NCBI GenBank assembly: GCA_027563145.1
Contig: CP071306.1
Coordinates: 558,001-622,000 of the forward strand
Reading direction: 5' to 3'
Length of the DNA: 64,000 nucleotides
DNA from: Halocatena halophila
GTDB taxonomy: Archaea; Halobacteriota; Halobacteria; Halobacteriales; Haloarculaceae
Part shown: positions 9,910 through 24,727 of the stretch, in pieces
Layout of the letters: each line of letters begins with the position of its first letter
Position numbering within the stretch: the first letter of the stretch is position 1
Made by a program: the position numbers and the translations under genes
The notes under the pieces: generated by a model
Told to the model about the DNA's origin: nothing
What the model saw: the letters and a program-made list of their open reading frames with translations, nothing else
The model's database searches: none

Positions 9910-10662
9910 CTACAGTTCGGGGAGAAACCGCTTGACAGTGCTGATGAGAATCCCAGGAATGTCCTCTTCAAAGCGTTTGCTCTTGAGTCGATCACTCGTG
10001 CCCGCAACGTAGACCGCCCCGAGCACGGATCCATTCTGCGTGATCGGCACCGCAACAGCGCGTCGTGACGCCCGCTGTTCGCCACGCTCGAACGCGATCC
10101 CTCGCTCGGCAATCCGGTCGAGTTTCTCTCGGAGTGCGGACCGGTCGCTGAGGGTTCGGTCAGTCTTCTGGGGCAGCCCAGTCCCATCGAGAATCTCTCC
10201 AACGCGTTCGGACGATAACGACGCCAAAATCGCCTTACCCGGCGCACTGCAGTGAAGATACCGAGAATTGGGGAGCTGAACCTGTATCTGGCGAGCCGGT
10301 GTCGTTCGATAGAGATCAACAGCTAGCCCCTCGTGTTCGACCACCAGTCCTGCGGGCTGGTCGGTAACAGAAACGAGCTGGTCGATGTGGGGTCTTGCCG
10401 TCCGATACAGCGGATCAGTCGCACGCGCACGCTCGCCGAGATCCGCCAGCCGGAGCCCAAGTTCGTACTCTCGACCAGTTTTGTTCACGAATCCAACCTC
10501 ATACAGCGTGTTGAGATGCTTATACGCCGTGCTCTTTGGAATCGACAGCCGATTTGCCAACTCCGTCACCCCGACCGTTCCATCCGCTTCTGCCAGCGCC
10601 TCAAGCACTGACACACTCGTCTGCGTCGCATTCACCGTCCGTTGGGAGTCCGGCCCACTCAT
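9910..10662 (-). CDS. IclR-family transcriptional regulator
   Basis: A 250-residue regulator. The N-terminal winged helix-turn-helix (about 10-75) includes GVTELANRLSIPKSTAYKHL and LYEVGFV. The C-terminal IclR effector domain shows PAGLVVEHEG, SAPGKAILA, RGIAFERGEQ, and SRRAVAVPI...GSVLGAVYVAG. In haloarchaea IclR proteins control sugar-acid and pentose operons (for example XacR for xylose/arabinose). It is divergent from the enolase-superfamily gene that opens the catabolic island, so it is the probable local regulator. I took the ATG at 10660-10662 (MSGPDSQRTV) as start; three in-frame ATGs upstream overlap the intergenic palindrome. Confidence 0.9.
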   Translation of the reverse strand: MSGPDSQRTVNATQTSVSVLEALAEADGTVGVTELANRLSIPKSTAYKHLNTLYEVGFVNKTGREYELGLRLADLGERARATDPLYRTARPHIDQLVSVTDQPAGLVVEHEGLAVDLYRTTPARQIQVQLPNSRYLHCSAPGKAILASLSSERVGEILDGTGLPQKTDRTLSDRSALREKLDRIAERGIAFERGEQRASRRAVAVPITQNGSVLGAVYVAGTSDRLKSKRFEEDIPGILISTVKRFLPEL

Positions 10663-10686
10663 GTACATCAACAATACACTCGGACT

Positions 10687-10703
10687 CATAAACATTGTTT
10701 ATG
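10687..10703. promoter_or_regulatory. 7-3-7 palindrome, candidate IclR operator
   Basis: The sequence CATAAAC-ATT-GTTTATG is a perfect inverted repeat located between the divergent IclR and enolase-superfamily genes, 24 bases upstream of the chosen IclR start. IclR dimers bind palindromes of this kind. A close half-site, CATAAACAATG, occurs at 20470-20480 before the PIG-L deacetylase gene. Binding is inferred from position and symmetry only. Confidence 0.5.
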
Positions 10704-10781
10704 TGTGATGAACGACACCAAAATGCACTCCATTCGGTCTCCGGTTTCGCCAGGAACATTATCGGTCTATCGCCCCGACAG

Positions 10782-10788
10782 TTATATT
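10782..10788 (+). promoter_or_regulatory. TATA box for the enolase-superfamily gene
   Basis: TTATATT lies 24-30 bases upstream of the ATG at 10812. That spacing is the one expected for an archaeal TATA box driving a leaderless or nearly leaderless transcript, and it supports 10812 as the true start codon. Confidence 0.5.
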
Positions 10789-10811
10789 CGTGTTCGATCA
10801 ATCCACCGTAT

Positions 10812-11963
10812 ATGAACATCACCGGCTACGATCTGTATGAAGTTCCACCCCGATGGGTGTTTCTCGTCATCAGAACGGACGCGGGCATCACAGGTTGGGG
10901 AGAACCAATCGTTGAGGGGCGGGCAAAAACGGTCAGCACCGCGGTCAAAGAGCTGATGGACGGATATCTCCTCGGAAAAGATCCCCTCCAGATCGAAGAC
11001 CACTGGCAGGCGATGTATCGGAACAACTTCTATCGCGGTGGACCGATTCTCATGAGCGCAATTGCGGGCATCGATCAGGCACTGTGGGACATCAAGGGCA
11101 AACACCACGAACTTCCGGTGTACGAACTCCTCGGAGGGCCGTGTCGTGACCGCGTTCGTGTCTATCAGTGGGTTGGTGGCGATCGACCCGCAGAGATCGC
11201 TGGCGAGGCAGAACAGCTCGTCGATGCAGGATATACGGCGATCAAGATGGACGCAGTCGAACGGATGCGCCAGATCGATTCGCCGGCAGCGGTGCACACG
11301 GCGAGCGATCGTGTCGAGCACGTCCGCGAGGCAGTCGGCCCGGAGATCGACATTGTGGTCGATTTCCGCGGACGTGCCTCGACGCCAATGGCCAGTCGAC
11401 TGATCGACGCGATCGAACCGTTCGAACCGATGTTCGTCGAAGAGCCTGTGCTTCCCGAGTATAACGACAATCTGGACGCGCTTTCAAAAACGACGACCGT
11501 ACCGCTGGCAACAGGTGAGCGAATGTACTCCCGCTGGGATTTCAAACGGCTGTTCGACGACAGGGTGATCGACGTGGTACAACCAGATATCTCACACGCA
11601 GGAGGCATCACGGAGGTCAGAAAGATCGCCGCAATGGCCCATCCCTACGACGTGTCGGTAGCGCTGAACTGTCCGATCGGCCCGATTGCGCTTGCTGCTT
11701 CGCTCCAGGTGTGTGCGTCGATTCCGAATCTATTGATCCAGGACCACGGCTTTGGCATCTCCGGAGCCCGCACAGGTATCCCGTACGAGTATCTCGCCGA
11801 TCCAACCGCATTCGAATTCGATGATGGATTTCTTGAGTTGCTCTCGGAGCCCGGACTCGGGATCGAGATCGACGAATCAGTGGTCAAGGCAAAAGCCCAG
11901 CAGGATATCGACTGGCACAATCCGGTCTGGCGCCACGAGGATGGCTCCATCGCCGAGTGGTAA
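10812..11963 (+). CDS. Galactonate dehydratase-like enolase-superfamily protein with substituted catalytic histidines
   Basis: This 383-residue protein aligns along its length with E. coli D-galactonate dehydratase (DgoD), which turns D-galactonate into 2-keto-3-deoxygalactonate. The three Mg2+ ligands are kept: Asp184 (VVDFRGR), Glu210 (FVEEPV) and Glu236 (TGERMYS). The general base His185 and general acid His285 of DgoD correspond, with a one-residue offset, to Arg186 (DF-R-GRAS) and Asn286 (AL-N-CPIGP) here. The surrounding residues match closely, so the alignment is firm. Ordinary galactonate dehydration is therefore doubtful; the enzyme may act on another acid sugar or catalyse another reaction. 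It is first in the island, divergent from the IclR gene. Confidence 0.88.
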   Translation: MNITGYDLYEVPPRWVFLVIRTDAGITGWGEPIVEGRAKTVSTAVKELMDGYLLGKDPLQIEDHWQAMYRNNFYRGGPILMSAIAGIDQALWDIKGKHHELPVYELLGGPCRDRVRVYQWVGGDRPAEIAGEAEQLVDAGYTAIKMDAVERMRQIDSPAAVHTASDRVEHVREAVGPEIDIVVDFRGRASTPMASRLIDAIEPFEPMFVEEPVLPEYNDNLDALSKTTTVPLATGERMYSRWDFKRLFDDRVIDVVQPDISHAGGITEVRKIAAMAHPYDVSVALNCPIGPIALAASLQVCASIPNLLIQDHGFGISGARTGIPYEYLADPTAFEFDDGFLELLSEPGLGIEIDESVVKAKAQQDIDWHNPVWRHEDGSIAEW

Positions 11964-12030
11964 GCCAACGAGGGAAACTGGTGTGACTCGAAACTGATTT
12001 TATGGAGGACCGAATCGTGAGTGACACGGT

Positions 12031-13065
12031 ATGGATGACGAGTTGGACACTACCACCGACACGCTCGAAACCGGGACCAGCTACTTTGGGGTCCGAGACC
12101 CCACCCACGTCGAATCGGATCTCGACAGATTCGTGGACAACGGATTGACGAGCGTTCTGCACACGTTCAGTGAGGCGGATCTGGAGTACTATCGCGAAAC
12201 AATGGGCGAAATAGTCGCGGCGAGCCACGAACGCGGGCTCACGGTGTATATGAATCCCTGGGGCGTCGGTCGCGTCTTTGGTGGCGAGGCGTTCTCCGAG
12301 TTCATCGGTCGCAATCCCGAGGACTGTCAGGTGATGTCTACCGGTGAGCGTCTCCCGGCTGCGTGTTTCAACGCGCCAGGATTTCGTTCGTACATGCGTG
12401 ACTGGACGGAGGCTGCCGCGTCGGTCGGCGCTGACGTGCTGTTCTGGGATGAGCCCCACTGGTACATTCCCGAATGGCACGACGAGGAAGATTGCTACCC
12501 CGATGAAGCCTGGAGCTGTCGGTGTGAGCACTGTCAGGAACGCTTTTTCGAACAGTACGGCGAACCGATGGACGCTGCCCACACCGACCGCGTCGAACAG
12601 TTCCGTGAGAAATCACTGCTCTCGTTTCTGATCGAAATGATGCAAGTGAGCAGCGAAGCGGGCTGTTCGAACGCTGTCTGCCTGTTGCCGAGCGAAGACT
12701 CCAAACACGGTCTTCGAAACTGGGGTGATCTGGCAGAACGCCCAGAACTCGACGTGCTCGCAACGGATCCGTACTGGACGCTCCACGGCGATGGCTCCGT
12801 TGAGGAGTTCGTCTCATACTTCTCCGAGATGGTGGCTTCGCTCGCTCGAACACACGACTGCAACAGTCAGATCTGGATCCAGGGCTTTCGACTTTCGGAG
12901 GGTGCCGAGACGACCGAAGCGGTCCGTACCGCAACGCAGGCCGCAGTCGAATCAGACGTCGATAGCGTGTTCATGTGGGGTTATGACGCCTGTCGGACGA
13001 TCTCCTCGATCGCCTGTGAGGATCCAGACGCCGTCTGGAACACCTATCTGGAGACACTTCCATGA
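12031..13065 (+). CDS. Putative intracellular TIM-barrel, glycoside-hydrolase-like protein
   Basis: A 344-residue protein without signal peptide. Strand-helix periodicity and motifs suggest a (beta/alpha)8 barrel: GLTVYMNPWG (about 69-78), VGADVLFWDEPHWY (132-145), LDVLATDPYW and SQIWIQGF late in the chain. Glu141 in WDEPHW and the later Asp are placed like catalytic acids of clan GH-A, but I cannot match a numbered family. A Cys cluster (155, 163, 165, 168) follows the motif and could bind a metal. It sits 67 bases after the enolase-superfamily gene and 84 before the PLP enzyme, so it probably acts on the imported sugar. Confidence 0.7.
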   Translation: MDDELDTTTDTLETGTSYFGVRDPTHVESDLDRFVDNGLTSVLHTFSEADLEYYRETMGEIVAASHERGLTVYMNPWGVGRVFGGEAFSEFIGRNPEDCQVMSTGERLPAACFNAPGFRSYMRDWTEAAASVGADVLFWDEPHWYIPEWHDEEDCYPDEAWSCRCEHCQERFFEQYGEPMDAAHTDRVEQFREKSLLSFLIEMMQVSSEAGCSNAVCLLPSEDSKHGLRNWGDLAERPELDVLATDPYWTLHGDGSVEEFVSYFSEMVASLARTHDCNSQIWIQGFRLSEGAETTEAVRTATQAAVESDVDSVFMWGYDACRTISSIACEDPDAVWNTYLETLP

Positions 13066-13149
13066 GTCATCGAGACCAGTGGCATAACGGCATCCAACCG
13101 ACCATAAGAGTTTACTGAAAAACTAATAAATGATTGTCGAGGACCAAAC

Positions 13150-14394
13150 GTGAATTCACAGGACTCAATCTATCGAACGTACAACGTGTCGCCCGTGATC
13201 AACGCCGCTGGAACGAAAACACGGATCGGCGGGAGTCGTATCCGTCCGGAAGCCATCGATGCGATGGAGCGTGCAGCCGAGTCGTTCGTCGTGCTCTCGG
13301 AGCTACAATCCGCTGCGAGCGAGCGCATCAGTGAGCTTACCGGCGCTCAGGCCGGCTATGTGACTGCTGGTGCGAGTGCTGGACTGTTGTTATCTGCGGC
13401 CGCTGCAATTGCCGGCGACGATTTCGAGGTGATGGCGGAGCTGCCAGCCACCAAAGGCGTTGCCGACGAGATCATCATGCCACGCACCCACCGGACGGCG
13501 TACGATCACGCATTCACGGCAGCCGGTGCAACGATCGTGGACGTTGGAACGAACGACGTCGAGCTCGGAACTGGTGCTGCAACCGTCGAACCGTGGGAGC
13601 TCCGCGGTGCAATAACCGAACAGACGGCAGCAATCGGGTACGTCGAAAAATCCTACACCCAACCCCCACTGGCGGTCGTCACCGAGATTGCCCACGAACA
13701 CGACATCCCGGTAATCGTCGATGCGGCTGCGGAAATTCCACCGGTAGAAAACTTCGAGCGATTTATCGACGCCGGTGCGGATCTGGTGGTGTTCAGTGGC
13801 GGGAAAGCGATCCGTGGCCCACAGACCACAGGAATCGTCGCCGGACGATCGGATCTGATCGAGTCGATTGCGCTCCAGAATCTCGATATGCATATCGCGC
13901 GTGAAATCTGGGATGCCCCAGCGATCATCGACTCCGTCGCGCTCGAGGATGGTGTGCCACGCCATGGGATTGGCCGCTCGGCAAAGGTCGGAAAAGAAGA
14001 GCTCGCCGGGCTGCTCGCCGCGCTCGAGAGCTTCGTGACCGAAGACCAGGACGCCGTGTACGAAACGTGGATGGCTCGGTCGACGTATTTCGACCAGCAG
14101 CTGGGTGGGCTCGAGGGAATTGAAACGGCAATCGACACCTCTGGAGAATCTCGTGCACCGGTGGTCGAGATGTCGCTCGATCCAGCAGTCATCGGTCAGA
14201 ACGCAACAGAAATTGCCGCAGATCTTCGAAGCCAGGATCCTCGGCTCTTCGTAGGCAGTGATCGACTCACCGAAGATATGATCGTTCTCAACCCGATGTG
14301 TCTTACCGACGAAGAGGTCGAATACGTCCTCGAACGGCTCCTGGAAGCGATCACGCCCCAGTCCACGAGTAGTTTCGAGCCGTTTACGGAATAA
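13150..14394 (+). CDS. SelA/DgaE-like PLP-dependent enzyme (probable aminosugar-acid ammonia-lyase or related)
   Basis: This 414-residue protein has the fold-type-I PLP pattern of the SelA-like group: GAQAGYVTAGASAGLLLSAAA, the cofactor Asp in PVIVDAAAEIPP (Asp191) and the Schiff-base Lys219 in VVFSGGKAIRGPQT. Archaea of this class do not make selenocysteine by SelA, and this group includes D-glucosaminate-6-phosphate ammonia-lyase (DgaE), which gives a 2-keto-3-deoxy acid plus ammonia. With RidA and a deacetylase in the same island, action on an unphosphorylated aminosugar acid is a reasonable inference. Start is a GTG at 13150, followed at once by the conserved YRTYNVSPVINAAGT block. Confidence 0.82.
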   Translation: MNSQDSIYRTYNVSPVINAAGTKTRIGGSRIRPEAIDAMERAAESFVVLSELQSAASERISELTGAQAGYVTAGASAGLLLSAAAAIAGDDFEVMAELPATKGVADEIIMPRTHRTAYDHAFTAAGATIVDVGTNDVELGTGAATVEPWELRGAITEQTAAIGYVEKSYTQPPLAVVTEIAHEHDIPVIVDAAAEIPPVENFERFIDAGADLVVFSGGKAIRGPQTTGIVAGRSDLIESIALQNLDMHIAREIWDAPAIIDSVALEDGVPRHGIGRSAKVGKEELAGLLAALESFVTEDQDAVYETWMARSTYFDQQLGGLEGIETAIDTSGESRAPVVEMSLDPAVIGQNATEIAADLRSQDPRLFVGSDRLTEDMIVLNPMCLTDEEVEYVLERLLEAITPQSTSSFEPFTE

Positions 14395-14443
14395 CTGATT
14401 GTACGTTTGTGTCAGTTATATAGTGGTTCTATATGGAAAGTCA

Positions 14444-14452
14444 TATATAGTG
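14444..14452 (+). promoter_or_regulatory. TATA box upstream of the ABC importer operon
   Basis: TATATAGTG lies 23-31 bases before the ATG at 14475, the usual position for a leaderless haloarchaeal promoter. The same nonamer occurs 27 bases further upstream at 14417-14425, so there may be two start sites or a regulator site. This suggests the transporter has its own promoter rather than depending only on read-through. Confidence 0.45.
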
Positions 14453-14474
14453 TGTATTCTAACCGAAGCTGTAC

Positions 14475-15788
14475 ATGTTCGATGATGATTCATCGCAGCC
14501 GTCTCGCCGTGCATTTCTGAAGACGGCCGGTGTCACGACAGCCACGATGGCGCTCGCTGGCTGTTCGAACGTTCTGGGCCCGTCACAATCGACCGATTCG
14601 AAGTCCGTGACCATCAAAACCCGACACTATGGCACGGGTGAGATGGAAGAATATCTCGAAAAACACACCAAGCAGTTCGAAAAAGACGAGGGTATTACGG
14701 TCGAATACGAAATCATCGGCTGGGGAGATGGTCCTGACGCACAGAAACAGGATATGCGAACGCAGTCCGGGCCGGATGTCGACGAGATCCCATCGTCGTT
14801 CATTCCTGGGTATTCGGCACTGGATGGATTCCAGGACCTCAATCAGGTCAAAGTCGACATCAACACTGACGCCTTTTTCGACAATCCACTCGGCATCGGT
14901 AAATACAATGATAAATTCATCGGCATTCCGTGGTTCTGGGGCCCACGTGCGCACATCAGCTACATGCCCGAGCTCGAGAAAGCTGGCATCGATGCGCCGC
15001 CAAAAAGCTGGGACGAACTCGTCTCGAAGGGCAACGCCTACAACAAGGAAAACTCCGATAAGCATCTGTTTGGCATTCCAACACAGTCGAACGTCAGCCA
15101 GTTCTTCGCTGATTTCGTCTGGCAGAACGGCGGGGCGCTCCTCAACGACGATAACTCGAAAGCGACGTTCGACTCGTCCGAAGCAGTTGACGCGCTGAAC
15201 TTCTATAAGGACCTCCAGTCCACCCACTCGGTGATGCCCAAAGACACCGCCGAATGGGACGGTGAACAGCGCGATAGCCGCTTTTTGAACCACAAGATCC
15301 AGTCAACGTGGGCCTCGCTCGCAACGGTCGATAACTTCACGAGCAAGGAGTCGATCTCGAAAGAGGACATCAAGATCACGAAACCACCAGCCGGGCCAAA
15401 CGGCGACTCGGCGATCTTCTATGGGCTCGAACTCGTCGGCATTCACCCGTGGACCGACCATCCAGAAGAAGCCGCAAAGTGGCTGAACTACCTGGCCAAG
15501 CCGTCCGTGAACGCAGAAGTCGCACAGACGACCGGCTTTTTGCCGGCCGTCGAGAAATCGTTCGAACAGGATTCGTTCGACGACCCCGTCTGGCAGGGCT
15601 TTTACGACATCACGGAGATCGGCAAGACGTTCCCACAGGTCGAAAACTGGGGGAAAGTCGAGGACATCATGAACGGTGCCATCAAGGGCGTCCTTCAGGA
15701 TGCAGCGACCGGCAAGTGGAGCGACGGCGACACCAAAAAAGCGCTCAAAGACGCGGCCAAGCAGGCCAACAGCGAACTCGGCAACTAA
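14475..15788 (+). CDS. ABC sugar transporter, Tat-exported lipoprotein substrate-binding protein
   Basis: A 437-residue family-1 solute-binding protein. The N-terminus has a Tat motif (SRRAFLK, 10-16) and a lipobox LAGC with Cys30, so the protein is exported folded and anchored by lipid, as is usual in haloarchaea. The mature part shows the two-lobed family-1 pattern (VTIKTRHYG, DEIPSSFIPGYSALDGF, GIPWFWGPRAHISYM, NYLAKPSVNAEVAQTTGFLPA). It binds the sugar outside the membrane and delivers it to the two permeases that follow. Substrate class is carbohydrate (CUT1); the exact sugar is unknown, but the island suggests an amino or acid sugar. Confidence 0.92.
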   Translation: MFDDDSSQPSRRAFLKTAGVTTATMALAGCSNVLGPSQSTDSKSVTIKTRHYGTGEMEEYLEKHTKQFEKDEGITVEYEIIGWGDGPDAQKQDMRTQSGPDVDEIPSSFIPGYSALDGFQDLNQVKVDINTDAFFDNPLGIGKYNDKFIGIPWFWGPRAHISYMPELEKAGIDAPPKSWDELVSKGNAYNKENSDKHLFGIPTQSNVSQFFADFVWQNGGALLNDDNSKATFDSSEAVDALNFYKDLQSTHSVMPKDTAEWDGEQRDSRFLNHKIQSTWASLATVDNFTSKESISKEDIKITKPPAGPNGDSAIFYGLELVGIHPWTDHPEEAAKWLNYLAKPSVNAEVAQTTGFLPAVEKSFEQDSFDDPVWQGFYDITEIGKTFPQVENWGKVEDIMNGAIKGVLQDAATGKWSDGDTKKALKDAAKQANSELGN

Positions 15789-15916
15789 CGGCTCTCTCTC
15801 GAATCACCCTTCGGTCCATCCTTTTGGCTGCATACACGGGCGTAGCGTGGCATATTCTCCACCCACGTGTGAGAAAAACCGACAGTAAAATACGTACGGA
15901 ATTGAAACGAGCCAGT

Positions 15917-16894
15917 ATGTCGGCTTCGATAGAGCAATTCACACAGTCCCTTCGAGAACGGATGACCGTTCCATCACTGGGACTCGACGACGACTCCCGG
16001 TTTGCCTACTGGCTACTGTTGCCATCGATCGCGATGATGGCACTGATCCACTTCATCCCGATGGTGTGGGGATTCGTGATCAGCTTCATGGAGGTCAACG
16101 ACAGCACATTCATAGACTGGATGAGTGCCCCAATCTCCCCGCTCAAACAGTATGGTGCGATCTTCCAGCCTGATACCGCAGTGGGTGCCGAGTTCTGGAG
16201 CTCACTGGTTGAGACGTTTCTGTTCGCCTTTGGCACGACAATCGGCGTCTACGTGCTGGGGCTCACCACTGCCCTGTTGTTGAACAAATCCTTCCGTGGG
16301 AAGTTCACCGCACGAACGCTCGTGTTGATTCCGTATTTCGCACCGGCAGTTGCGACGATCTACATCTGGCGGATGATGTTCACGGCAGACACGGGCGTAG
16401 TCAATGAGCTACTCGTCTGGCTTGGTGTGATCAATTCAACCGATGAGGTTTTCTGGCTTATCGGGAACAACGCACTCATCTCGATGATTGTAGTCAACAT
16501 CTGGAAGAACTTCCCGTTCGCAGCGATCATGCTGTACGCAGGCCTGCAGTCAATTCCCGAACAGCTGTATGAAGCGGCCTCGATCGACGGAGCGAGCCGT
16601 TGGGCGACGTTCCGATACGTAACCCTCCCACAGCTCAAGCCGGTTACCGCCGTAATCATCCTGCTCATGATCGTCTGGTCGTTCATCAACTTCACCATCC
16701 CGTATCTGTTACTCGATAAAAACCCGGAGAATGGAGAGGTTCTCATGCTGTTCATCTACAACTTCGCGTTCCAGAACGGTGATTACTCGCTAGGAGCCGC
16801 CCTCTCGATCATTCTGCTCGTGATCTCAATGGTCATCTCCTATGGCTACTACCGAGCAACGATGCAGTCGTCCGTGCAAGGAGGTGCGGTCTAA
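15917..16894 (+). CDS. ABC sugar transporter permease 1 (MalF/UgpA-like)
   Basis: A 325-residue inner-membrane permease with about six membrane helices and the EAA loop (YEAASIDGASRWATFRYVTLP), which contacts the ATPase. I chose the ATG at 15917 (MSASIEQFTQ), about 40 residues before the first helix; the frame is open far upstream but that part overlaps the binding-protein gene and has no transporter similarity. Its stop shares a base with the next gene's ATG (TAATG at 16892-16896), so the two permeases are translationally coupled. Confidence 0.92.
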   Translation: MSASIEQFTQSLRERMTVPSLGLDDDSRFAYWLLLPSIAMMALIHFIPMVWGFVISFMEVNDSTFIDWMSAPISPLKQYGAIFQPDTAVGAEFWSSLVETFLFAFGTTIGVYVLGLTTALLLNKSFRGKFTARTLVLIPYFAPAVATIYIWRMMFTADTGVVNELLVWLGVINSTDEVFWLIGNNALISMIVVNIWKNFPFAAIMLYAGLQSIPEQLYEAASIDGASRWATFRYVTLPQLKPVTAVIILLMIVWSFINFTIPYLLLDKNPENGEVLMLFIYNFAFQNGDYSLGAALSIILLVISMVISYGYYRATMQSSVQGGAV

Positions 16895-17775
16895 TGGGCG
16901 GCTTCCCGTCGGAGTTCGAACTGTCCACGGACGCCAGAGATCACCTTATCGATGCGTTCCAGAAGTTTGTGCTTGGGCTCATACTCACGTTCACGCTCTT
17001 TCCGATCTTCATGATGATTGCGACCAGTCTGAAATCGGAATCAGAGCTCTACCGGGACGGGCTTCATCTTCTTCCTTCGACGCTCAACGTCCAGAATTAC
17101 GTTGACATGTGGGCCCGATTCGATCTGGTTGGGTTTTTCCTCAACAGTCTCATCATTGCTGGGACGACCACAGTTATCTGTTTGACCGTTGGAAGCCTTG
17201 CAGCGTACGCCTTTTCGCGGTATGAGTTCCCGGGCAAGGGACTGTTTGGACTGACGATACTCTCGACGCAGATGATCCCTGGCGTCCTGATTTTGATCCC
17301 GATCTTCATCCTGTATATCACCGTCCAGCGAGAGTTCGGGGTTCCAATGATCAATACGTATCACGGCATCATCTTCATCTACTCGACGTTCACCGTTCCG
17401 TTCGCAATTTGGATGCTGCGGGGCTACTTCGACACGATACCGGCTGCGCTTGAGGATGCCGCCCGGATCGACGGCTGTACGCGCTTACAAGCGCTCTATC
17501 GGATCGTCCTTCCGCTTGCCATGCCGGGAATCGCAGCCACTGGCATGTTCGTGTTCATTATCGCATTCAACGAGGTGCTGTTCGCCTCAGCGTTCGCAAA
17601 CGATGGCGTCACCCCGTTTGCCATCGGCATTCAGAAGTTCCAGACCAGCACGGGGACACACTGGACGGAGATGATGGCTGCTGCCACCGTCTCGTCTGTG
17701 CCACTGTTGTTGATCTTCGGTCTCTTCCAGAAACAGATCGTCTCGGGGCTCACCGCCGGTAGCGTGAAGCAATAA
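16894..17775 (+). CDS. ABC sugar transporter permease 2 (MalG/UgpE-like)
   Basis: A 293-residue permease with six membrane helices and the EAA-type loop LEDAARIDGCTRLQALYRIVLP. FTLFPIFMMIATSLKSESEL near the N-terminus is typical of the MalG partner of CUT1 importers. It forms the membrane channel together with permease 1 and is expected to be energised by the MalK-like ATPase encoded 65 bases downstream. Confidence 0.92.
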   Translation: MGGFPSEFELSTDARDHLIDAFQKFVLGLILTFTLFPIFMMIATSLKSESELYRDGLHLLPSTLNVQNYVDMWARFDLVGFFLNSLIIAGTTTVICLTVGSLAAYAFSRYEFPGKGLFGLTILSTQMIPGVLILIPIFILYITVQREFGVPMINTYHGIIFIYSTFTVPFAIWMLRGYFDTIPAALEDAARIDGCTRLQALYRIVLPLAMPGIAATGMFVFIIAFNEVLFASAFANDGVTPFAIGIQKFQTSTGTHWTEMMAAATVSSVPLLLIFGLFQKQIVSGLTAGSVKQ

Positions 17776-17840
17776 CCTTCAGGCGAGCCAGAGATATAGA
17801 CCAACTATTATATACGGGTGTTGCCAATAGACAAGCAGAA

Positions 17841-18962
17841 ATGGGAACTGTTGAACTGCAGCAGCTGCGAAAGCGATTTGGATCTGGGGACGACGCGGTC
17901 GTCGCCGTCGATGACCTCTCGCTCGAGCTCGAAGACGGGGAGTTTCTGGTGCTTGTTGGGCCATCGGGCTGTGGGAAATCGACAACGCTGCGAATGATCG
18001 CCGGACTCGAGAGCGCAACCGACGGAGATATCCGAATCGGTGAGGAGTCAGTCACGGACTTCGAACCCCGCGACAGGGACATTGCCATGGTGTTTCAGAA
18101 CTACGCGCTCTACCCACACATGACGGCGCGTGAGAACATGGCGTTCGGGCTGAAAATGAACTCCTCGCTGGACGAAGCGACGATCGACGACCGGGTCACC
18201 GACGTGGCACAGACGCTATCGATCGAGCCGTTGCTCGACGATACACCCAGTGAGCTCTCCGGTGGCCAACAACAGCGTGTCGCGCTCGGTCGGGCGATCG
18301 TCCGCGAACCCGCGGTGTTTCTGATGGATGAGCCGTTATCGAATCTCGACGCCAAGCTTCGCTCGCAGATGCGAACCGAACTCCAGGCACTGCAAGAGAC
18401 GCTCGACACCACCACCATCTACGTCACCCACGACCAGACCGAAGCGATGACGATGGGTGATCGAATCGCGATTCTGAACGAGGGCGAACTCCAGCAGGTC
18501 GGAACACCACTCGAGTGTTACAACACACCCGCCAACCAGTTCGTAGCCGGATTCATCGGCTCGCCTTCGATGAACTTTCTGGATGTTACTCACGACGCCG
18601 GGACGCTCACACACGAGGCGTTCACCTACGAACTCTCCGAGGCAACCACAGAGCTACTCGAAGACCAGACGGACTACGTCATGGGGATTCGACCAGAGGA
18701 TCTCGATCTTACACCCGACGGGGCGATCGATGCGGACGCAGAGGTGGTTGAGCCGCTTGGTGATCTCTCGCACGTCCACGCCCGGGTTGGAGAGACGCTC
18801 GTGACGGCGACCGTACCAGCAGGCACACAGCTCCCAGCTGGCGAATCACTGACGCTCTCAGTTCCCGAATCTCGACTTCACATTTTCGATCACTCAAGCG
18901 GCGAGGCAGTCAAAAACTCCGACGGTCCAACGCAGGAACAACCCCTGATTGCTGCGGAGTAA
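17841..18962 (+). CDS. ABC sugar transporter ATP-binding protein (MalK/UgpC-like)
   Basis: A 373-residue ATPase with Walker A GPSGCGKST (40-48), Q-loop FQNYALYPHM, signature LSGGQQQR (139-146), Walker B VFLMDEPLSNLD (about 159-170) and switch His in YVTHDQ. After about residue 240 comes a TOBE/MalK-type regulatory domain (MGIRPEDLDL, AEVVEPLGDLSHVHARVG). It powers the CUT1 importer. TTATATA at 17808-17814 lies about 30 bases before the ATG, so an internal promoter is possible. It converges with the glucose dehydrogenase-type gene, leaving four bases between stops. Confidence 0.93.
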   Translation: MGTVELQQLRKRFGSGDDAVVAVDDLSLELEDGEFLVLVGPSGCGKSTTLRMIAGLESATDGDIRIGEESVTDFEPRDRDIAMVFQNYALYPHMTARENMAFGLKMNSSLDEATIDDRVTDVAQTLSIEPLLDDTPSELSGGQQQRVALGRAIVREPAVFLMDEPLSNLDAKLRSQMRTELQALQETLDTTTIYVTHDQTEAMTMGDRIAILNEGELQQVGTPLECYNTPANQFVAGFIGSPSMNFLDVTHDAGTLTHEAFTYELSEATTELLEDQTDYVMGIRPEDLDLTPDGAIDADAEVVEPLGDLSHVHARVGETLVTATVPAGTQLPAGESLTLSVPESRLHIFDHSSGEAVKNSDGPTQEQPLIAAE

Positions 18963-18966
18963 CGCC

Positions 18967-20043
18967 TCAGCGCTCTCCGAATTCGATAACTGTTTTGATT
19001 CGATCGTCTCCGCCTGCAAACGCCTCCTCGATTGCTGTCGGTTCGAATACGTCCGTGATGAGCGCTTCGGGCAACCAGTCCGGATATGCCTGCAGTGTCT
19101 TGATTGCGCGCTCGTACTGGGCCACGTTGGAGTTGACACTCCCAAGAATCGCTTTATTCTGTAACACCAGTTCACTGTGAAGGGAGCCTCCGTCGATCTC
19201 AAACGACCAATCGTCAGGAAGCCCGAGCAACGCGGCCACACCGTTTGGCGCGAGCGCGTAAACCGATTCGAATGCGTGTTTTGCAAAGCCGGTTGCTTCA
19301 TACACGAAATCAACGGGTGGATGTGTGTCGGCGAACTCCCCAACCGGCGTTTCCCGCGAATCGACGTACGTACTCCCCAGTCGCTCGATGATCTCGATCG
19401 TCGGATCCGGTCGGTCTCGACGACCCAGACAGTACGTTCGCTCGAAGCCATTGTCGTGTAACATCGCGAGCGTCAGCAGACCGAGCGGTCCGTTGCCGAG
19501 CACGAACGCGCTGTCGGGCTGCCACTCGAACGCAGAGCGACTCGCCCGTGCGTGTTCGAGTGCTTTTTCGGCGTTGCTGATCGGTTCGACGAGAAAACCA
19601 TGCGCAGCGAGCTCATCGGGAATCCGAACGAGAAACTCCGGACGACTGGTGAAATACTCGGCCATATATCCATGAGCCCCAACGATCCCGCGCTCTACGT
19701 ACTCGTCTGCCGGTGCCATGTCCGGTTCTCCCCGATCGAACCACACTGGGGGCTGCTCGTATCGTCCGTTCGGTGGCCGACGAACCGTTGGGACGACGAG
19801 ATCGCCAGCAGAAAATGACGTTCCATTCGATTCTTCGACGACCGCTATGGCCTCGTGGCCGAGGATCTGGTAGTCACCGTCTGCCGGAAATCCGCCGTGT
19901 GAGCCATTGAGGACCTCAAAATCGGTGCCATCAATCCCGACGCGAAGCGTTCGCAACAGCAGTTCTTCAGGCCCCGGCTCTGGGGTCTCAAGGTCTCTCA
20001 GTGTTGGCGTCGTTGCGCCACGCTCAACGACGATCGCCTTCAT
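18967..20043 (-). CDS. Zinc-dependent glucose 1-dehydrogenase-type MDR enzyme
   Basis: A 358-residue medium-chain dehydrogenase closely resembling haloarchaeal glucose 1-dehydrogenase. It has the Zn ligand set Asp38 (GIDGTDFE), His63 and Glu64 (LGHEAIAV), the nucleotide loop LGNGPLGLLTL, and CLGRRDR after the second strand, whose two Arg suggest NADP+. The known enzyme oxidises glucose to gluconolactone at C1. In this island the same chemistry could turn a free amino sugar into its aldonic acid. It is transcribed opposite to the importer, from the gap before the PIG-L gene. Substrate is inferred. Confidence 0.9.
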   Translation of the reverse strand: MKAIVVERGATTPTLRDLETPEPGPEELLLRTLRVGIDGTDFEVLNGSHGGFPADGDYQILGHEAIAVVEESNGTSFSAGDLVVPTVRRPPNGRYEQPPVWFDRGEPDMAPADEYVERGIVGAHGYMAEYFTSRPEFLVRIPDELAAHGFLVEPISNAEKALEHARASRSAFEWQPDSAFVLGNGPLGLLTLAMLHDNGFERTYCLGRRDRPDPTIEIIERLGSTYVDSRETPVGEFADTHPPVDFVYEATGFAKHAFESVYALAPNGVAALLGLPDDWSFEIDGGSLHSELVLQNKAILGSVNSNVAQYERAIKTLQAYPDWLPEALITDVFEPTAIEEAFAGGDDRIKTVIEFGER

Positions 20044-20555
20044 CGGCGACCACCACGACAGTCGGTGATTACAGATCCGATGCTATCGGCAGCGTTGCTC
20101 GGAGCACCCATGGGAACTCGTTCTGGTGGGGAAGGTATGAATCTACCGACACGATTTCGATTCGCCAGAAAGACGCCTTGTTCGCGCTGAAATCACGCGA
20201 TCCACCGCGTTCGAACAGTCCGAATTCACGGGGAAATCATCAATCAGCAGATCGAGTGTTCACCGCTCGTGGACACTCCCACGGATAGCCACCCATTCAT
20301 GTTCCATCGACGACACGACCCGTCTGAAACAGTTACAGTACTGGTATATGATACAAATTAGGAGAAAGGCTGGTGGCTGATGACAATCAGAGGTCGCTGG
20401 TGATCTCCCGAGGTGGCTGGTGGACACTTATCCGACCTGAAGATCCTGATCTGAGCGCTGTTTCGTTGCCATAAACAATGAATTTGCAACTATCAGAACG
20501 TGGTAGTGAAACTGATCAAAAGGTATTTGTGTACAGTGTGCTGTTAGGAAGCTGT
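20044..20555. other. 512-base gap with possible decayed reading frame
   Basis: This gap separates two divergent genes, so promoters for both should lie here. On the minus strand 20069-20240 is open for ~57 codons and reads with protein-like composition (FPREFGLFERGGSRDF, then SYLPHQNEFPWVLRATL) to a TAA at 20069-20071. No start codon opens it, and an adjoining piece in another frame (MEHEWVAIRGSVHER, about 20260-20300) precedes it. It may be a frameshifted gene relic of unknown family. The rest shows only the regulatory repeat near 20465-20490. Confidence 0.35.
20465..20490. promoter_or_regulatory. Inverted repeat containing an IclR-palindrome half-site
   Basis: GTTGC at 20465-20469 and GCAAC at 20486-20490 form an inverted repeat around CATAAACAATG (20470-20480). 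The first eight bases of that core match the half-site of the palindrome next to the IclR gene. It lies about 66-90 bases before the PIG-L start, a plausible operator position. Regulation by the IclR protein is inferred. Confidence 0.4.
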
Positions 20556-21269
20556 ATGCATTTGTTAGCCATCGTGGCCCACCCGGACGACGCCGACATT
20601 TTTTGTGGTGGGACGTTAGCGAAGCACGCAGACCGCGGTGACACCGTTACGATCGCCCATATGACACGCGGAGAGTTCGGTGGGTTCGGTGAAACCACCG
20701 AGTCGGAGGTGGCAACCACACGCGAGAACGAAGCACAGAAAGCGGGGGCTGAGCTCAACGCAGATGAAGTTGCGTTTCTGGGATTTGCGGACGGTCGGAT
20801 TACACACACCTACGAAAACCGGGTACGGATCGTGAATGCCATTCGCCAGTACGACCCAGACCTGATTCTTACACATTTCCGCGACGACTTGCACCCAGAC
20901 CACAAGGCTACAGCACGGCTGGTGACAGACGCATACTACATGGCGTCGATCGAGCTGTTCGAAAGCGAATACGAACCGTGTGATCCGGAGAACGTGCTGT
21001 TTTTCGGCAAGCCAACTTCTTCGTTCGAGCCCTCGCTGTTCGTGGATATCTCCGAGTACACCGACCAGAAGCGGCGTGCTATCGAACAGCACGAATCGCA
21101 GATCGAGTTTCTCACAGAGCATGGGGGCATCGATTCGGAGTTCGACAATCTGCTCGATGGAATTGCCGCAGAGGACACCGTCCGTGGCAAACGTGTGGGC
21201 GTAGGGGCGGCCGAAGGATTTGCTACACTTCACGAAACTGCCCAGGAGTATCTGACTGTAGATCGGTAG
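20556..21269 (+). CDS. PIG-L/LmbE-family deacetylase
   Basis: A 237-residue member of the PIG-L family, zinc enzymes that remove acetyl groups from N-acetylglucosamine and related amino sugars. The metal motif AHPDD is at residues 8-12, and the third-ligand region appears as HFRDDLHPDHKAT. I started at the ATG at 20556 because MHLLAIVAHPDD is the standard family opening; an ATG 26 codons upstream overlaps the inverted repeat. It runs 57 bases ahead of ridA in the same direction. In the island it would supply the free amino group on which the PLP enzyme acts. The true substrate is unknown. Confidence 0.9.
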   Translation: MHLLAIVAHPDDADIFCGGTLAKHADRGDTVTIAHMTRGEFGGFGETTESEVATTRENEAQKAGAELNADEVAFLGFADGRITHTYENRVRIVNAIRQYDPDLILTHFRDDLHPDHKATARLVTDAYYMASIELFESEYEPCDPENVLFFGKPTSSFEPSLFVDISEYTDQKRRAIEQHESQIEFLTEHGGIDSEFDNLLDGIAAEDTVRGKRVGVGAAEGFATLHETAQEYLTVDR

Positions 21270-21326
21270 CGTTTTGAAAGCACAGTGTCGTTGCAGAACT
21301 GCTGTACTGACAGCGCCATCCAATCC

Positions 21327-21707
21327 ATGGAAGAAATATCGACTGACGACGCACCAGCAAGCATTGGGCCGTTCTCACAGGGAATCATCGACGGCGAGAC
21401 GATTTACGTCTCCGGACAGGGACCCGTTGATCCAGAAACCGGTGATATCGTCGGCGATACCCCCGCCGAACAGACACGACGGACGCTCGAAAACGTCGAA
21501 GCCGTACTCGAAGCTGCCGGAAGTACTCTCGATGATGTCGTAAAGGCAACCGTGTTCGTTAAAGACATGCGCTACTATGATGCGGTTAACGAAGTGTACG
21601 GCGAGCACATGTCGGAGCCGTATCCGGCACGGAGCGCGGTTGAAGTGGTTAAGCTCCCCGTCGATATCGATGTGGAAATCGAAGTGATCGCATCGCTCGC
21701 CGAATGA
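21327..21707 (+). CDS. ridA: RidA-family enamine/imine deaminase
   Basis: A 126-residue RidA (YjgF/YER057c/UK114) protein with SIGPFSQGI, VYVSGQGP-like IYVSGQGPVDP, the ENVEAVLEAAGSTLDDVVK helix and the catalytic Arg in YPARSAVEV. RidA hydrolyses reactive enamine/imine intermediates released by PLP-dependent dehydratases and ammonia-lyases. Its presence after the PIG-L gene, in an island with a SelA/DgaE-like PLP enzyme, supports a deaminating step on an amino sugar acid. Start is the ATG at 21327, since upstream in-frame sequence lacks family similarity. Confidence 0.92.
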   Translation: MEEISTDDAPASIGPFSQGIIDGETIYVSGQGPVDPETGDIVGDTPAEQTRRTLENVEAVLEAAGSTLDDVVKATVFVKDMRYYDAVNEVYGEHMSEPYPARSAVEVVKLPVDIDVEIEVIASLAE

Positions 21708-22015: not shown

Positions 22016-23560
22016 TTAGCTCATATATCCCAGCTGCTCGAGCCTGTCTGTCACCTTCTCCGACTGGCCGGGATCATATCTATCATCGAGCGCAAGCGGT
22101 TCTCGTTGGTCGAATTCCGGCTGATTCACCAGCACATCAAGAACCTCTCCACGCATATCGGACGGAACGTCGCACTCGAACGTCGCGAGCAGCGTCGGTG
22201 CCACGTCGAGAATGCTGATCCGATCGATTTCGCCACGGTCGTCGAAATCCGGTCCAGCGGCCACGAATATCCCATTGGGCGTGTTTTCGGCTGCCCACCG
22301 ATCCGGTCCGGTCTGAACGTTTCCGCCACCCATACCATCGTTGACGTGGACGCCCGGTCGCTGATCAACGACGACCTGTGGTCCCTCATCAGTGAAGGGG
22401 CCAGAGTACACCGCACTCCCGCGAACGACGCGCGTGAACAGTGGTCCGTCCGAATCACGTACCGACTCGAGATCAGCAATTAGCTCCTCGGCGACGGCAT
22501 CGACATCGAACGCGGGATTAATGTAGATCGGTCCTTGCGAGCTTGCGACTGCCTTCGTGCGGTCGAGATCGATGGCGTCGAGTTTCCTGGCCCGTTTGAT
22601 TCCCGCGCTCTGCGGGACGAGTTGCTGGATCCGTTCTGGGACGATTGCCGCGAGCGGATCGACGAGCCCGGCACGTTTTGCAAGCGCAAGGACGTTTTCT
22701 CTGTTGATGCCCAGGGGTCGCAGGAAATCTTCGACGGTTTGGGTGCGTTGTTGGTAACCGTGTTCGGCGAGCCACTCGTTGATGTAAAACTCGGTAGTAG
22801 TCGGGGCGCTGCCGTGATCGGAGACGATCACCAGATTCACGTCATCGAGGGCTTTGAGTCGACCAATCCACTCATCGACGAGTGTCCATGCTCGCTTGCT
22901 GGGTTCCTCGTCCCAGAAAAAGTGATGGAGGACATTCAGATAGAACAGGGTGACGTGAACGAGATCGAGCTCTTTGCGTTCGAACAGGTCGAGAGCGACG
23001 GCAAACCGCTGTTCGAGCACGTCGAGGATCGCCTCAACCTCTTCGCCTCGTTCTTCGTTCGATGAGATCAGCGGGTCGGGATGGACCTCGTACTCGTGCT
23101 CGCGTTCGAGCGTCGTGGCCAGTGCTTCGGGATGCGTGTAGCCAGAATCGATCGATCGATACTCGCCCTCAACGGTTCCCGGACCGCCACAGACGAGTGG
23201 TCCATCGATCTCCCGTGGCGGATACATCGTTGGCATGTTGACGACGCCCGTCGTATACCCCTCATCGTTCAAATAATCCCACAGCTCTGCCGTTCGGTAA
23301 TCGCGACTGTCGATCGTACTGATTTCGCCGGCCTCAAGGTCGACACGCTCGAACCAGTAGACGCCAAATCCACCGGGATCCTTTCCTGAAGAATAACACT
23401 TCCAGTTCGGAAACGTAACCGGCGGAAGACAGCTGTTGTGGCCGGCCCAGACGCCTTCCTCGCGAAGGGCCCGAAGATTGGGAAGCTCTCCCGACGCGAT
23501 CCAGGGCTCAAGCAGCCGCCAGCTCGCACCGTCGAGACCCACGACAAACGTTCGGCTCAT
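22016..23560 (-). CDS. Alkaline-phosphatase-superfamily phosphodiesterase/nucleotide pyrophosphatase-like protein
   Basis: A 514-residue type-I phosphodiesterase-like enzyme without signal peptide. Metal ligands fit the superfamily: Asp10 in VVGLDGASW, Thr49 as the nucleophile in PPVTFPNW, and the VIVSDHGSAP block. Haloarchaea often carry these genes beside glycosyltransferases and sulfatase-like genes in surface-glycan clusters, where they may act on phosphodiester-linked sugars or lipids. Here it heads the glycan locus together with a flippase-like gene 39 bases upstream on the same strand. I took MSRTFVVG at 23560 as the start, four codons inside the longest frame. Confidence 0.85.
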   Translation of the reverse strand: MSRTFVVGLDGASWRLLEPWIASGELPNLRALREEGVWAGHNSCLPPVTFPNWKCYSSGKDPGGFGVYWFERVDLEAGEISTIDSRDYRTAELWDYLNDEGYTTGVVNMPTMYPPREIDGPLVCGGPGTVEGEYRSIDSGYTHPEALATTLEREHEYEVHPDPLISSNEERGEEVEAILDVLEQRFAVALDLFERKELDLVHVTLFYLNVLHHFFWDEEPSKRAWTLVDEWIGRLKALDDVNLVIVSDHGSAPTTTEFYINEWLAEHGYQQRTQTVEDFLRPLGINRENVLALAKRAGLVDPLAAIVPERIQQLVPQSAGIKRARKLDAIDLDRTKAVASSQGPIYINPAFDVDAVAEELIADLESVRDSDGPLFTRVVRGSAVYSGPFTDEGPQVVVDQRPGVHVNDGMGGGNVQTGPDRWAAENTPNGIFVAAGPDFDDRGEIDRISILDVAPTLLATFECDVPSDMRGEVLDVLVNQPEFDQREPLALDDRYDPGQSEKVTDRLEQLGYMS

Positions 23561-23599
23561 ATTCACATCCACCCGATTGCTGGTGAAAGCTTTTGTTTT

Positions 23600-24625
23600 T
23601 CACTGCGACGTGTCGCTCAGGATCGCGGACAGATTGAGACGACTGAGCGGTATCCATCCCGCCAGCGAGGGTAGATACACGCCGAGGAAGCGATCGGCGA
23701 CGATCACCGGCGCAATCACTCCCTGGGGGACGCCAAGCGCAACGAAGACCAGCGTTGCCGACGCTTCTGCGACGCCGATTCCCCCTGGTGTCAATGGTAG
23801 CAACGTCACGCTGTAGGCTGTCACAAGGACGACAGAGAGTGCCACTGGCGAAAACGGCTCGCCGAAAACGGACAACAACAGCCACACCCTGAGTGCTGGA
23901 AACACCATTCGAGAGCCGACCCAGCCGCCAACATACCGTGCGATGACTCCGGGCTCACCGAGCAACGATCTGAACGTCTCAGTGACCCCGTTGCTAAACG
24001 CCGGAATCTGTTCGGACAGTCGCTTGAGGACACGATCGATCGGTCCAATACGACTTGCAACGGAAAAAATTGGAGCACAGAGTGCAACCAGCGCGTCAAA
24101 CCGCCAGCCTGCAAGCAATGATCCCACGCCTACAAGAAGATACAACCCAATCGACCCCGCGAGGACGACGAGCAGGCCGGGAGAAAACGCATCCAGAAAC
24201 CAGACTAATCCAGCCAGTGCGATGAATCCGTTACAGACGGCATACAACGCGGTATGAACGCCCGTAATCGAGGTTACTGTGCCCCAGTCGTGACCCGTAA
24301 AATGACGCAGCACGACCGGGGCGGCAGATCGACCTGACAGCCGTGAGGGAAGCAGCTGGTTGATGTAGTTCGTGATCAGAGTCGTCCGAATTGCCGTCGA
24401 AAAGGGCGTCGGCTCGATGGCGTTGCAAAGGACGCTCCACATGGAAAACCGACAGAACGTTTCGCCGATCGAGACAACCACAAGAAGCACGACGATCGTT
24501 GGGTCCAGTCCGGCCAGCAGCTGCCGGACGTGCTCCCAGTCGGCACTCGAGAGTAGCCACCCGAGCGTGGCCAGTCCAATCCCATACTGGAGGGCTTTGC
24601 CGAGCTGGTGCCGGCTGATTTCCAT
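23600..24625 (-). CDS. Flippase-like membrane protein (LPG synthase TM/UPF0104 family)
   Basis: A 341-residue protein with about eight membrane helices and the family signatures NYINQLLPSRLSGRSAAPVVL and SVTLLPLTPGGIGVAEASA. These proteins share the membrane domain of lysylphosphatidylglycerol synthase and are thought to move lipids or lipid-linked sugars across the membrane, without the aminoacyl transferase domain. It lies between two alkaline-phosphatase-superfamily genes and probably belongs to the glycan export pathway. It is divergent from the second phosphatase-like gene, 102 bases away. Confidence 0.85.
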   Translation of the reverse strand: MEISRHQLGKALQYGIGLATLGWLLSSADWEHVRQLLAGLDPTIVVLLVVVSIGETFCRFSMWSVLCNAIEPTPFSTAIRTTLITNYINQLLPSRLSGRSAAPVVLRHFTGHDWGTVTSITGVHTALYAVCNGFIALAGLVWFLDAFSPGLLVVLAGSIGLYLLVGVGSLLAGWRFDALVALCAPIFSVASRIGPIDRVLKRLSEQIPAFSNGVTETFRSLLGEPGVIARYVGGWVGSRMVFPALRVWLLLSVFGEPFSPVALSVVLVTAYSVTLLPLTPGGIGVAEASATLVFVALGVPQGVIAPVIVADRFLGVYLPSLAGWIPLSRLNLSAILSDTSQ

Positions 24626-24727
24626 TGGTCGTGTGAACGATCAGATGCGCAAGGATACCTGCGTTGTGGTTTCGGACGCCCGACGGATCGCAAGGGGTAT
24701 CATTTTCGGGCCGAGCACTCATACATA

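Follow-up and report, generated by a model that had tools for sequence, protein, structure and literature searches.

The 64,000-nucleotide stretch of Halocatena halophila DNA analysed here (the window) carries, at positions 9910-21707, a gene island that is likely to serve the uptake and the oxidative, non-phosphorylated breakdown of a chitin-derived amino sugar. A divergent IclR-family regulator gene is followed on the forward strand by genes for an altered "galactonate dehydratase" (GAD*), an unnamed GH42/GlmA-like protein (UNK), a SelA/DgaE-like pyridoxal phosphate (PLP) enzyme (DGA), and the solute-binding protein (SBP), two permeases (PERM1 and PERM2) and ATPase of a CUT1 ATP-binding cassette (ABC) importer. 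A glucose dehydrogenase (GDH) gene lies on the reverse strand, and genes for a PIG-L deacetylase and RidA follow on the forward strand (Table 1). The host genome is 3.75 Mb in 5 contigs and is 94.6% complete. The preliminary description of this DNA had listed the regulator, importer, DGA, GDH, PIG-L and RidA. Each is present in that span; the reasoning built on this correct list left out GAD* and UNK, which lie in the same span.

We infer both the reactions and their order. GH18 chitinases encoded elsewhere in the genome would release small chito-oligosaccharides, which the CUT1 ABC system would import. PIG-L would take off the N-acetyl groups, UNK would split or otherwise process the deacetylated saccharide, and GDH would oxidise glucosamine at C1 to glucosaminate. 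DGA would eliminate water from unphosphorylated glucosaminate to give an enamine/imine, and RidA would hydrolyse this, yielding ammonia and 2-keto-3-deoxygluconate. The last steps would fall to a kinase and an aldolase elsewhere in the genome. The amino-sugar chemistry, the oxidative order, the pairing of an ammonia-lyase with RidA and the non-phosphorylated substrate had all been proposed in the preliminary description, and comparison at the sequence level supports them.

Linkage of the island genes

We compared the loci around the best 80 of 330 DGA relatives, which were thus selected by similarity to DGA and not randomly. Sixty-three of the 80 are haloarchaeal by title; excluding the twin of the window (L033) and a close relative (L097) left 61. 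A gene was counted as recurring at 50% identity or more over at least half of the query, with E<=1e-10 as a looser threshold. At the 50% threshold RidA recurs in 32 of the 61 loci, PIG-L in 28, GDH and the ABC ATPase in 24 each, a DgoD-like gene in 23, PERM2 in 22, PERM1 in 17 and UNK in 7. The SBP and IclR genes recur in none at this threshold, and in 22 and 31 loci, respectively, at the looser one. Each of the 26 control open reading frames (ORFs), chosen by us from elsewhere in the window, scored 0/61 at the 50% threshold. The preliminary description had staked its proposal on PIG-L, RidA and the PLP enzyme being linked in other genomes as well, and this linkage is found. A separate tally, used below, covered 62 DGA loci, 10 of which span less than 20 kb.

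Gene order varies among Natrialba, Natrinema, Haloferax, Haloarcula and Natrarchaeobius. That the content is largely kept despite this points to selection on function. Haloferax mucosum and H. larsenii (L048 and L075) are among the relatives with the island. A DGA tree places 25 of the 26 rows that have a linked DgoD-like gene in a single group of 30 rows (98/95); the tree took in only 5 of 17 non-haloarchaeal relatives. These 17 (L093-L112 minus L097, L099 and L107; 39-48% identity) come from Chloroflexota, Thermomicrobiota, Bauldia and others. PIG-L, RidA, GDH and the DgoD-like gene were not seen near DGA in these loci, some of which are short; a separate comparison gave one weak GDH match (26%) in L094.

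The lyase and its partner enzymes

The nearest characterised lyase to DGA is a 6-phosphate (DgaE-type) enzyme, and the fold and the PLP lysine are common to both. In a phosphorylated route, glucosaminate would be phosphorylated first, and DGA would be a DgaE-type glucosaminate-6-phosphate ammonia-lyase giving 2-keto-3-deoxy-6-phosphogluconate (KDPG), as predicted for Natrarchaeobius in the accessible text of PMC12343721. The genome does contain sugar kinase candidates, namely four near-full-length PfkB proteins and one ROK protein. However, relatives of these kinases occur near DGA in only 2 of the 62 loci (L050 and L078), and DGA scores well below the cut-offs of the DgaE models (215 bits against 385 for TIGR01437; 199 against 600 for NF047797). 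The residues point the same way. The basic phosphate-site residues of the Salmonella enzyme were assigned from docking only, according to the part of PMC9529869 available. The position of Arg332 is Gly in 64/64 haloarchaeal DGAs, and positions 301, 332 and 346 together hold no Arg or Lys in 57 of the 64 and one in the other 7. The loss of the docked arginines argues that haloarchaeal DGA would act on unphosphorylated glucosaminate, before rather than after phosphorylation, and we regard the phosphorylated route as unlikely.

A second change concerns the fate of the enamine. Changing His163 to Ala (H163A) leaves the Salmonella enzyme active but makes it release the enamine (PMC9529869, same portion). 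In all 64 haloarchaeal DGAs the His163 position is a gap and position 162 is never His; a pairwise alignment of DGA places a Tyr opposite His163, and a His stands somewhere else in the loop in 5 of the 64. The absence of the enamine-protonating histidine from all 64 would explain the presence of RidA in the island. In two other places (L165:4728-5096 and G337:C23:181488-181765), short DGA remnants adjoin the GH42-like gene, as though a DGA copy had decayed.

GDH matches the glucose dehydrogenase structure 2b5v (E 2e-134), which we take to be the Haloferax mediterranei enzyme. In the Halosolutus locus, a lactonase-family gene (L233:14893-15954) follows glucose dehydrogenase and is a possible glucosaminolactone hydrolase; no counterpart was seen in the island of the window. 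The matches of PIG-L include the diacetylchitobiose deacetylases 8bgn and 8bgo and the malate-GlcNAc (GlcNAc, N-acetylglucosamine) deacetylase 6p2t. The motifs HPDD and HPDH, presumably the metal site, are present in 38/38 PIG-L relatives, and the protein is a putative de-N-acetylase of GlcNAc or diacetylchitobiose. The PARSA motif, whose Arg we assume to be catalytic, occurs in 34 of 35 RidA relatives.

In a side clade of DGA (L079, L084, L086 and L088), the PIG-L relative nearby is more distant (31-38% identical) and an Amidohydro_3 protein (L084 alone scanned) is also present, with GH20 in 2 of the 4 loci. This amidohydrolase may resemble OngB, the D-aminoacylase-type enzyme of a marine bacterial pathway described below.

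Two altered proteins, GAD* and UNK

By automatic annotation GAD* is a galactonate dehydratase. It meets the equivalog cut-off of NF010624, and its Halosolutus relative carries the name dgoD. If the name held, the island could be an ordinary neutral-sugar island, with GDH and the dehydratase in a De Ley-Doudoroff or Entner-Doudoroff branch and PIG-L and RidA as passengers. The residues do not agree with this. In 26/26 rows, the window included, the motif DFHGR has become DFRGR, and HCPLG has become NCPLG, NCPIG or NCPVG. A second set has D147, R186 and N286 in 30/30 genomes, where canonical haloarchaeal relatives have N (28/29), H (28/29) and H (29/29); N286 and the 29/29 His follow from the search pattern used for this set, whereas the 26-row set was found without a pattern. 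The second set consists of 31 rows from 30 genomes (the window appears twice); 30 of 40 pattern matches were read as proteins, and 1 of 30 canonical loci, a 121-aa ORF, was dropped. Both canonical histidines are thus missing from GAD* in all 30 genomes. A canonical paralog at C1:63710 of the same genome, 62% identical to GAD*, retains both. The solved relative 3RR1 (a 430-bit match) also has the canonical residues. GAD* shares its metal-ligand acids and differs in that two His and one Asn have become Arg, Asn and Asp. Lys145 and the metal-ligand acids are retained in 26/26 rows; the presumed Asp partner of the lost histidine has changed in 6 of the 26, to V, A or N. We take the two histidines, and other conserved residues of DgoD, to have active-site roles. 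Backing for a catalytic role of these histidines was sought in the accessible parts of PMC2781113 and PMC1431709 and in literature listings, and was not found there.

Of 391 haloarchaeal genomes, 40 carry the N-type motif of GAD*, and DGA is present in 40/40 of these against 48/351 of the remaining genomes. Here 88 genomes count as DGA genomes, each having a match of at least about 411 bits; the raw tally of 337/391 consists mostly of short, weak matches. GAD* lies within 15 kb of DGA in 38 of the 40. GAD* and UNK are both confined to DGA genomes, save one genome with DGA fragments only; the p values for these co-occurrences ignore shared ancestry and are descriptive only. Since GAD* is confined to DGA genomes and mostly lies within 15 kb of DGA, it appears to work with DGA. 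Together with the recurring linkage of PIG-L and RidA, this makes the ordinary-sugar interpretation very improbable. GAD* would belong to the island pathway, having ceased to be a standard galactonate dehydratase, and probably acts on an amino-sugar acid; its role may be a second path to the 2-imino acid, C2 epimerisation, lactone handling or a non-catalytic one. The Asn to Asp change resembles, by analogy only, the substitution that lets GlmA recognise an amine.

UNK (344 aa) has no family match in Pfam or NCBIfam at E<=0.001. Its own family is present in 28 of the 391 genomes, and the alignment has 28 rows (G383 has a further copy and G073 a fragment, both excluded). The structure is predicted to be a (beta/alpha)8 fold of GH42/GlmA-like type, as in clan GH-A glycoside hydrolases (GH35/GH42). 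Asp140-Glu141 is found in 28/28 at the end of strand 4 (model strand 136-140), which is the position of the acid/base Glu. Gln284 is also found in 28/28 and follows strand 7 (278-283), where the nucleophile Glu is expected; this position was judged by strand order and not by residue superposition. The Asp-Glu pair of GlmA reads the C2 amine of glucosamine, as stated in the available part of PMC6566704. A GH20-like substrate-assisted mechanism was considered for UNK given the adjacent Asp and Glu, and the GlmA precedent would fit the pair better.

The link of UNK to GH42 comes from the predicted structure and from 1 of 10 scanned members, which scored 22.1 bits and so barely exceeded the GH42 cut-off of 21; in another scan 2 of 28 members match GH42. 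Searches of PDB sequences gave nothing significant with the family profile (best E 0.18), and with a divergent member the best match was unrelated (E 0.075), an N-acetyl-glucosaminidase appearing at E 0.86. Foldseek alone put beta-amylases at the top for the UNK model.

Both proteins lack expected catalytic residues, Gln284 of UNK included, and they might be catalytically dead sensors or scaffolds. This would be compatible with the amino-sugar pathway. However, GAD* keeps Lys145 and its metal-ligand acids, UNK keeps its Asp-Glu pair, and both are nearly always found in DGA genomes, so that we consider the loss of catalysis doubtful.

Table 1. Genes of the island, with window positions and supporting matches.
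Feature	Position	Strand	Match or start
IclR-family regulator	9910..10695	-	IclR_C 74 bits, HTH_IclR 53 bits; internal ATG at 10668 too
GAD*, DgoD-like enolase-superfamily enzyme	10812..11963	+	NF010624 583 bits vs cut-off 311; ORF opens with TTG at 10695, ATG 10812 likely start
UNK, GH42/GlmA-like (beta/alpha)8 protein, putative cytoplasmic glucosaminidase-like enzyme	12031..13065	+	
DGA, SelA/DgaE-like PLP enzyme, putative non-phosphorylated D-glucosaminate ammonia-lyase	13150..14394	+	PLP Lys219
Tat-type solute-binding protein (SBP_bac_1)	14475..15788	+	Pfam match; TAT signal model TIGR01409
ABC permease 1 (PERM1)	15917..16894	+	Halosolutus relative annotated sugar ABC transporter permease; long ORF from 15449, 15917 likely start
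ABC permease 2 (PERM2)	16894..17775	+	Halosolutus relative annotated carbohydrate ABC transporter permease
UgpC/MalK-type ABC ATPase	17841..18962	+	NF008653 458 bits vs cut-off 432
GDH, putative glucosamine C1 dehydrogenase	18967..20043	-	Glu_dehyd_C 294 bits
PIG-L/CE14-type de-N-acetylase	20478..21269	+	PF02585 114 bits; likely start 20556
RidA-type enamine/imine deaminase	21285..21707	+	TIGR00004 153 bits vs cut-off 106; likely start 21327

The two permeases were named via conserved clusters and the annotated Halosolutus relative, not via the Pfam scan. Downstream of the island, positions 22016-25879 encode phosphodiesterase/phosphatase-like, membrane and sulfatase-like proteins (named from reading the sequence), none of which recurs near DGA in the compared loci.

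Chitin context and related systems

The genome carries two tandem GH18 + CBM5/12 + PKD proteins on another contig; a third GH18 match is marginal. We assumed these chitinases to be secreted, and by eye one of them appears to start with a twin-arginine-like stretch. On a plasmid of Halosolutus gelatinilyticus, GH18 genes adjoin the island and also adjoin a UNK relative. In L159, a CBM5/12 + PKD protein and then a GH18 + CBM5/12 protein come after a UNK relative. In L154, the neighbour of a UNK relative is a GH9 enzyme, and a family-5 solute-binding transporter precedes it. A GH3 cluster is present in 14 of the 62 DGA loci and a GH20 cluster in 5; these clusters, like the SIS and amidohydrolase clusters, were each named from a single representative. 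No GH20 match was found in the Halocatena genome.

The same enzyme logic could serve another N-acetylated sugar, such as N-acetylgalactosamine, N-acetylmannosamine or the sugars of S-layer or biofilm glycans. The specificities of GDH and PIG-L cannot be read from sequence, and GH3, GH20 and GH9 come and go among the loci. However, the genome has its own GH18 + CBM5/12 proteins, relatives have GH18 genes beside the island, and a carrier of the cluster is a chitin/GlcNAc specialist (PMC12343721, accessible text). A different sugar therefore seems to us improbable, and chitin the likelier source.

No match to PF01182 (the NagB-type family) was found in this 94.6% complete genome; 9 of 14 controls gave a match. 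Four Haloarcula loci (L080-L083, for example L082:17226-18281) have a GlmS-C-terminal/NagB-II-like SIS protein inside the island (L082 alone scanned; all NCBIfam scores below their cut-offs), hinting at a second, phosphorylated amino-sugar exit there.

Several observations weigh against the proposed amino-sugar pathway. Four of the 26 control ORFs do match DGA loci at E<=1e-10 (13, 2, 1 and 1 loci; the other 22 match none). PIG-L is missing in 26 of the 62 DGA loci, and 8 of the 62 are without any tested partner. Two of the 40 GAD* genes are not within 15 kb of DGA, in G276 and in G073; in the latter GAD* and one DGA copy are close to contig ends. A reversed control pattern gave one match in each of 2 of the 391 genomes. 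Finally, a search of the Halocatena genome, at its 94.6% completeness, gave no PF01081 KDPG aldolase, although a Haloferax volcanii control matched; other aldolase families were not searched. This absence also speaks against the phosphorylated route, and the semi-phosphorylated Entner-Doudoroff step that the preliminary description had placed downstream is conjectural.

Several published systems resemble parts of the island. One is the 2025 Natrarchaeobius prediction, which runs from GlcNAc through glucosamine to glucosaminate and then to a DgaE-like lyase. Its clusters also contain CE14, GDH, a "GAD", IclR, a RutC-family protein, an ABC importer and nearby chitinases (PMC12343721). It differs in going via glucosaminate-6-phosphate with an unknown kinase. 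In the accessible text of that paper the RutC-family protein is called a transcription repressor, "GAD" is given no step and no GH42-like family is seen. The view in the preliminary description that haloarchaea had no described equivalent is thus outdated.

The marine bacterial ong pathway of 2022 likewise has deacetylation, deamination of unphosphorylated glucosaminate to 2-keto-3-deoxygluconate and a RidA protein, OngD, which is required for growth and has a role described as unknown (PMC9537276, part available). It uses different families, OngB being of the D-aminoacylase family and OngC a fold-type III PLP enzyme; its substrate is already oxidised by a lytic polysaccharide monooxygenase on entry, through an SSS transporter. 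This contrast takes the families as stated in that part of PMC9537276 and is not a direct comparison with the OngB and OngC sequences. The marine glucosaminate route mentioned in the preliminary description therefore exists, while its enzyme families differ and only RidA and the chemistry are shared.

In the chitinolytic pathway of Thermococcus and Pyrococcus, the deacetylase Dac is related to the PIG-L of the island, and the glucosaminidase GlmA is matched by UNK in its GH-A-like barrel and Asp-Glu pair (PMC6566704, same portion). UNK differs from GlmA as a single 344-aa domain with Gln at the nucleophile site, and the island product would be oxidised. The Salmonella 6-phosphate lyase has the fold and PLP lysine of DGA, and the haloarchaeal DGAs are without its docked Arg cluster and without His at 162/163 (PMC9529869, part available).

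The pathway outline (from Natrarchaeobius) and phosphate-free deacetylation and deamination (from bacterial ong) are known already. Within the open-licence literature, the evidence for an unphosphorylated step, the breadth among haloarchaea with its control, the histidine loss of GAD* and the GH42/GlmA-like family appear to be new. GAD* is misnamed and UNK unnamed in databases, and both look rebuilt for new chemistry. We put forward a bolder reading tentatively, giving it somewhat less than an even chance. In it, the unphosphorylated glucosamine pathway would be complete in haloarchaea; GAD*, with its lost DgoD histidines and gained Asp, would catalyse an undescribed amino-sugar-acid reaction beside the PLP lyase; UNK would found a new glycosidase family, as a GH42-like enzyme of one domain that acts as a glucosaminidase or phosphorylase and lacks the usual nucleophile; and the C2 amine would be what both proteins have been rebuilt around.

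Haloarchaeal use of the nitrogen and carbon in chitin, an abundant polymer, is not yet settled experimentally. The analysis develops an outline prediction into a pathway that can be tested at named residues, and it offers a reason for the presence of RidA in the island. It also singles out an automatically assigned galactonate dehydratase that lacks the expected residues and that, in the sampled genomes, occurs only alongside the amino-sugar lyase, and it draws attention to a glycosidase-like family, so far without a name, that 28 of 391 haloarchaeal genomes carry.

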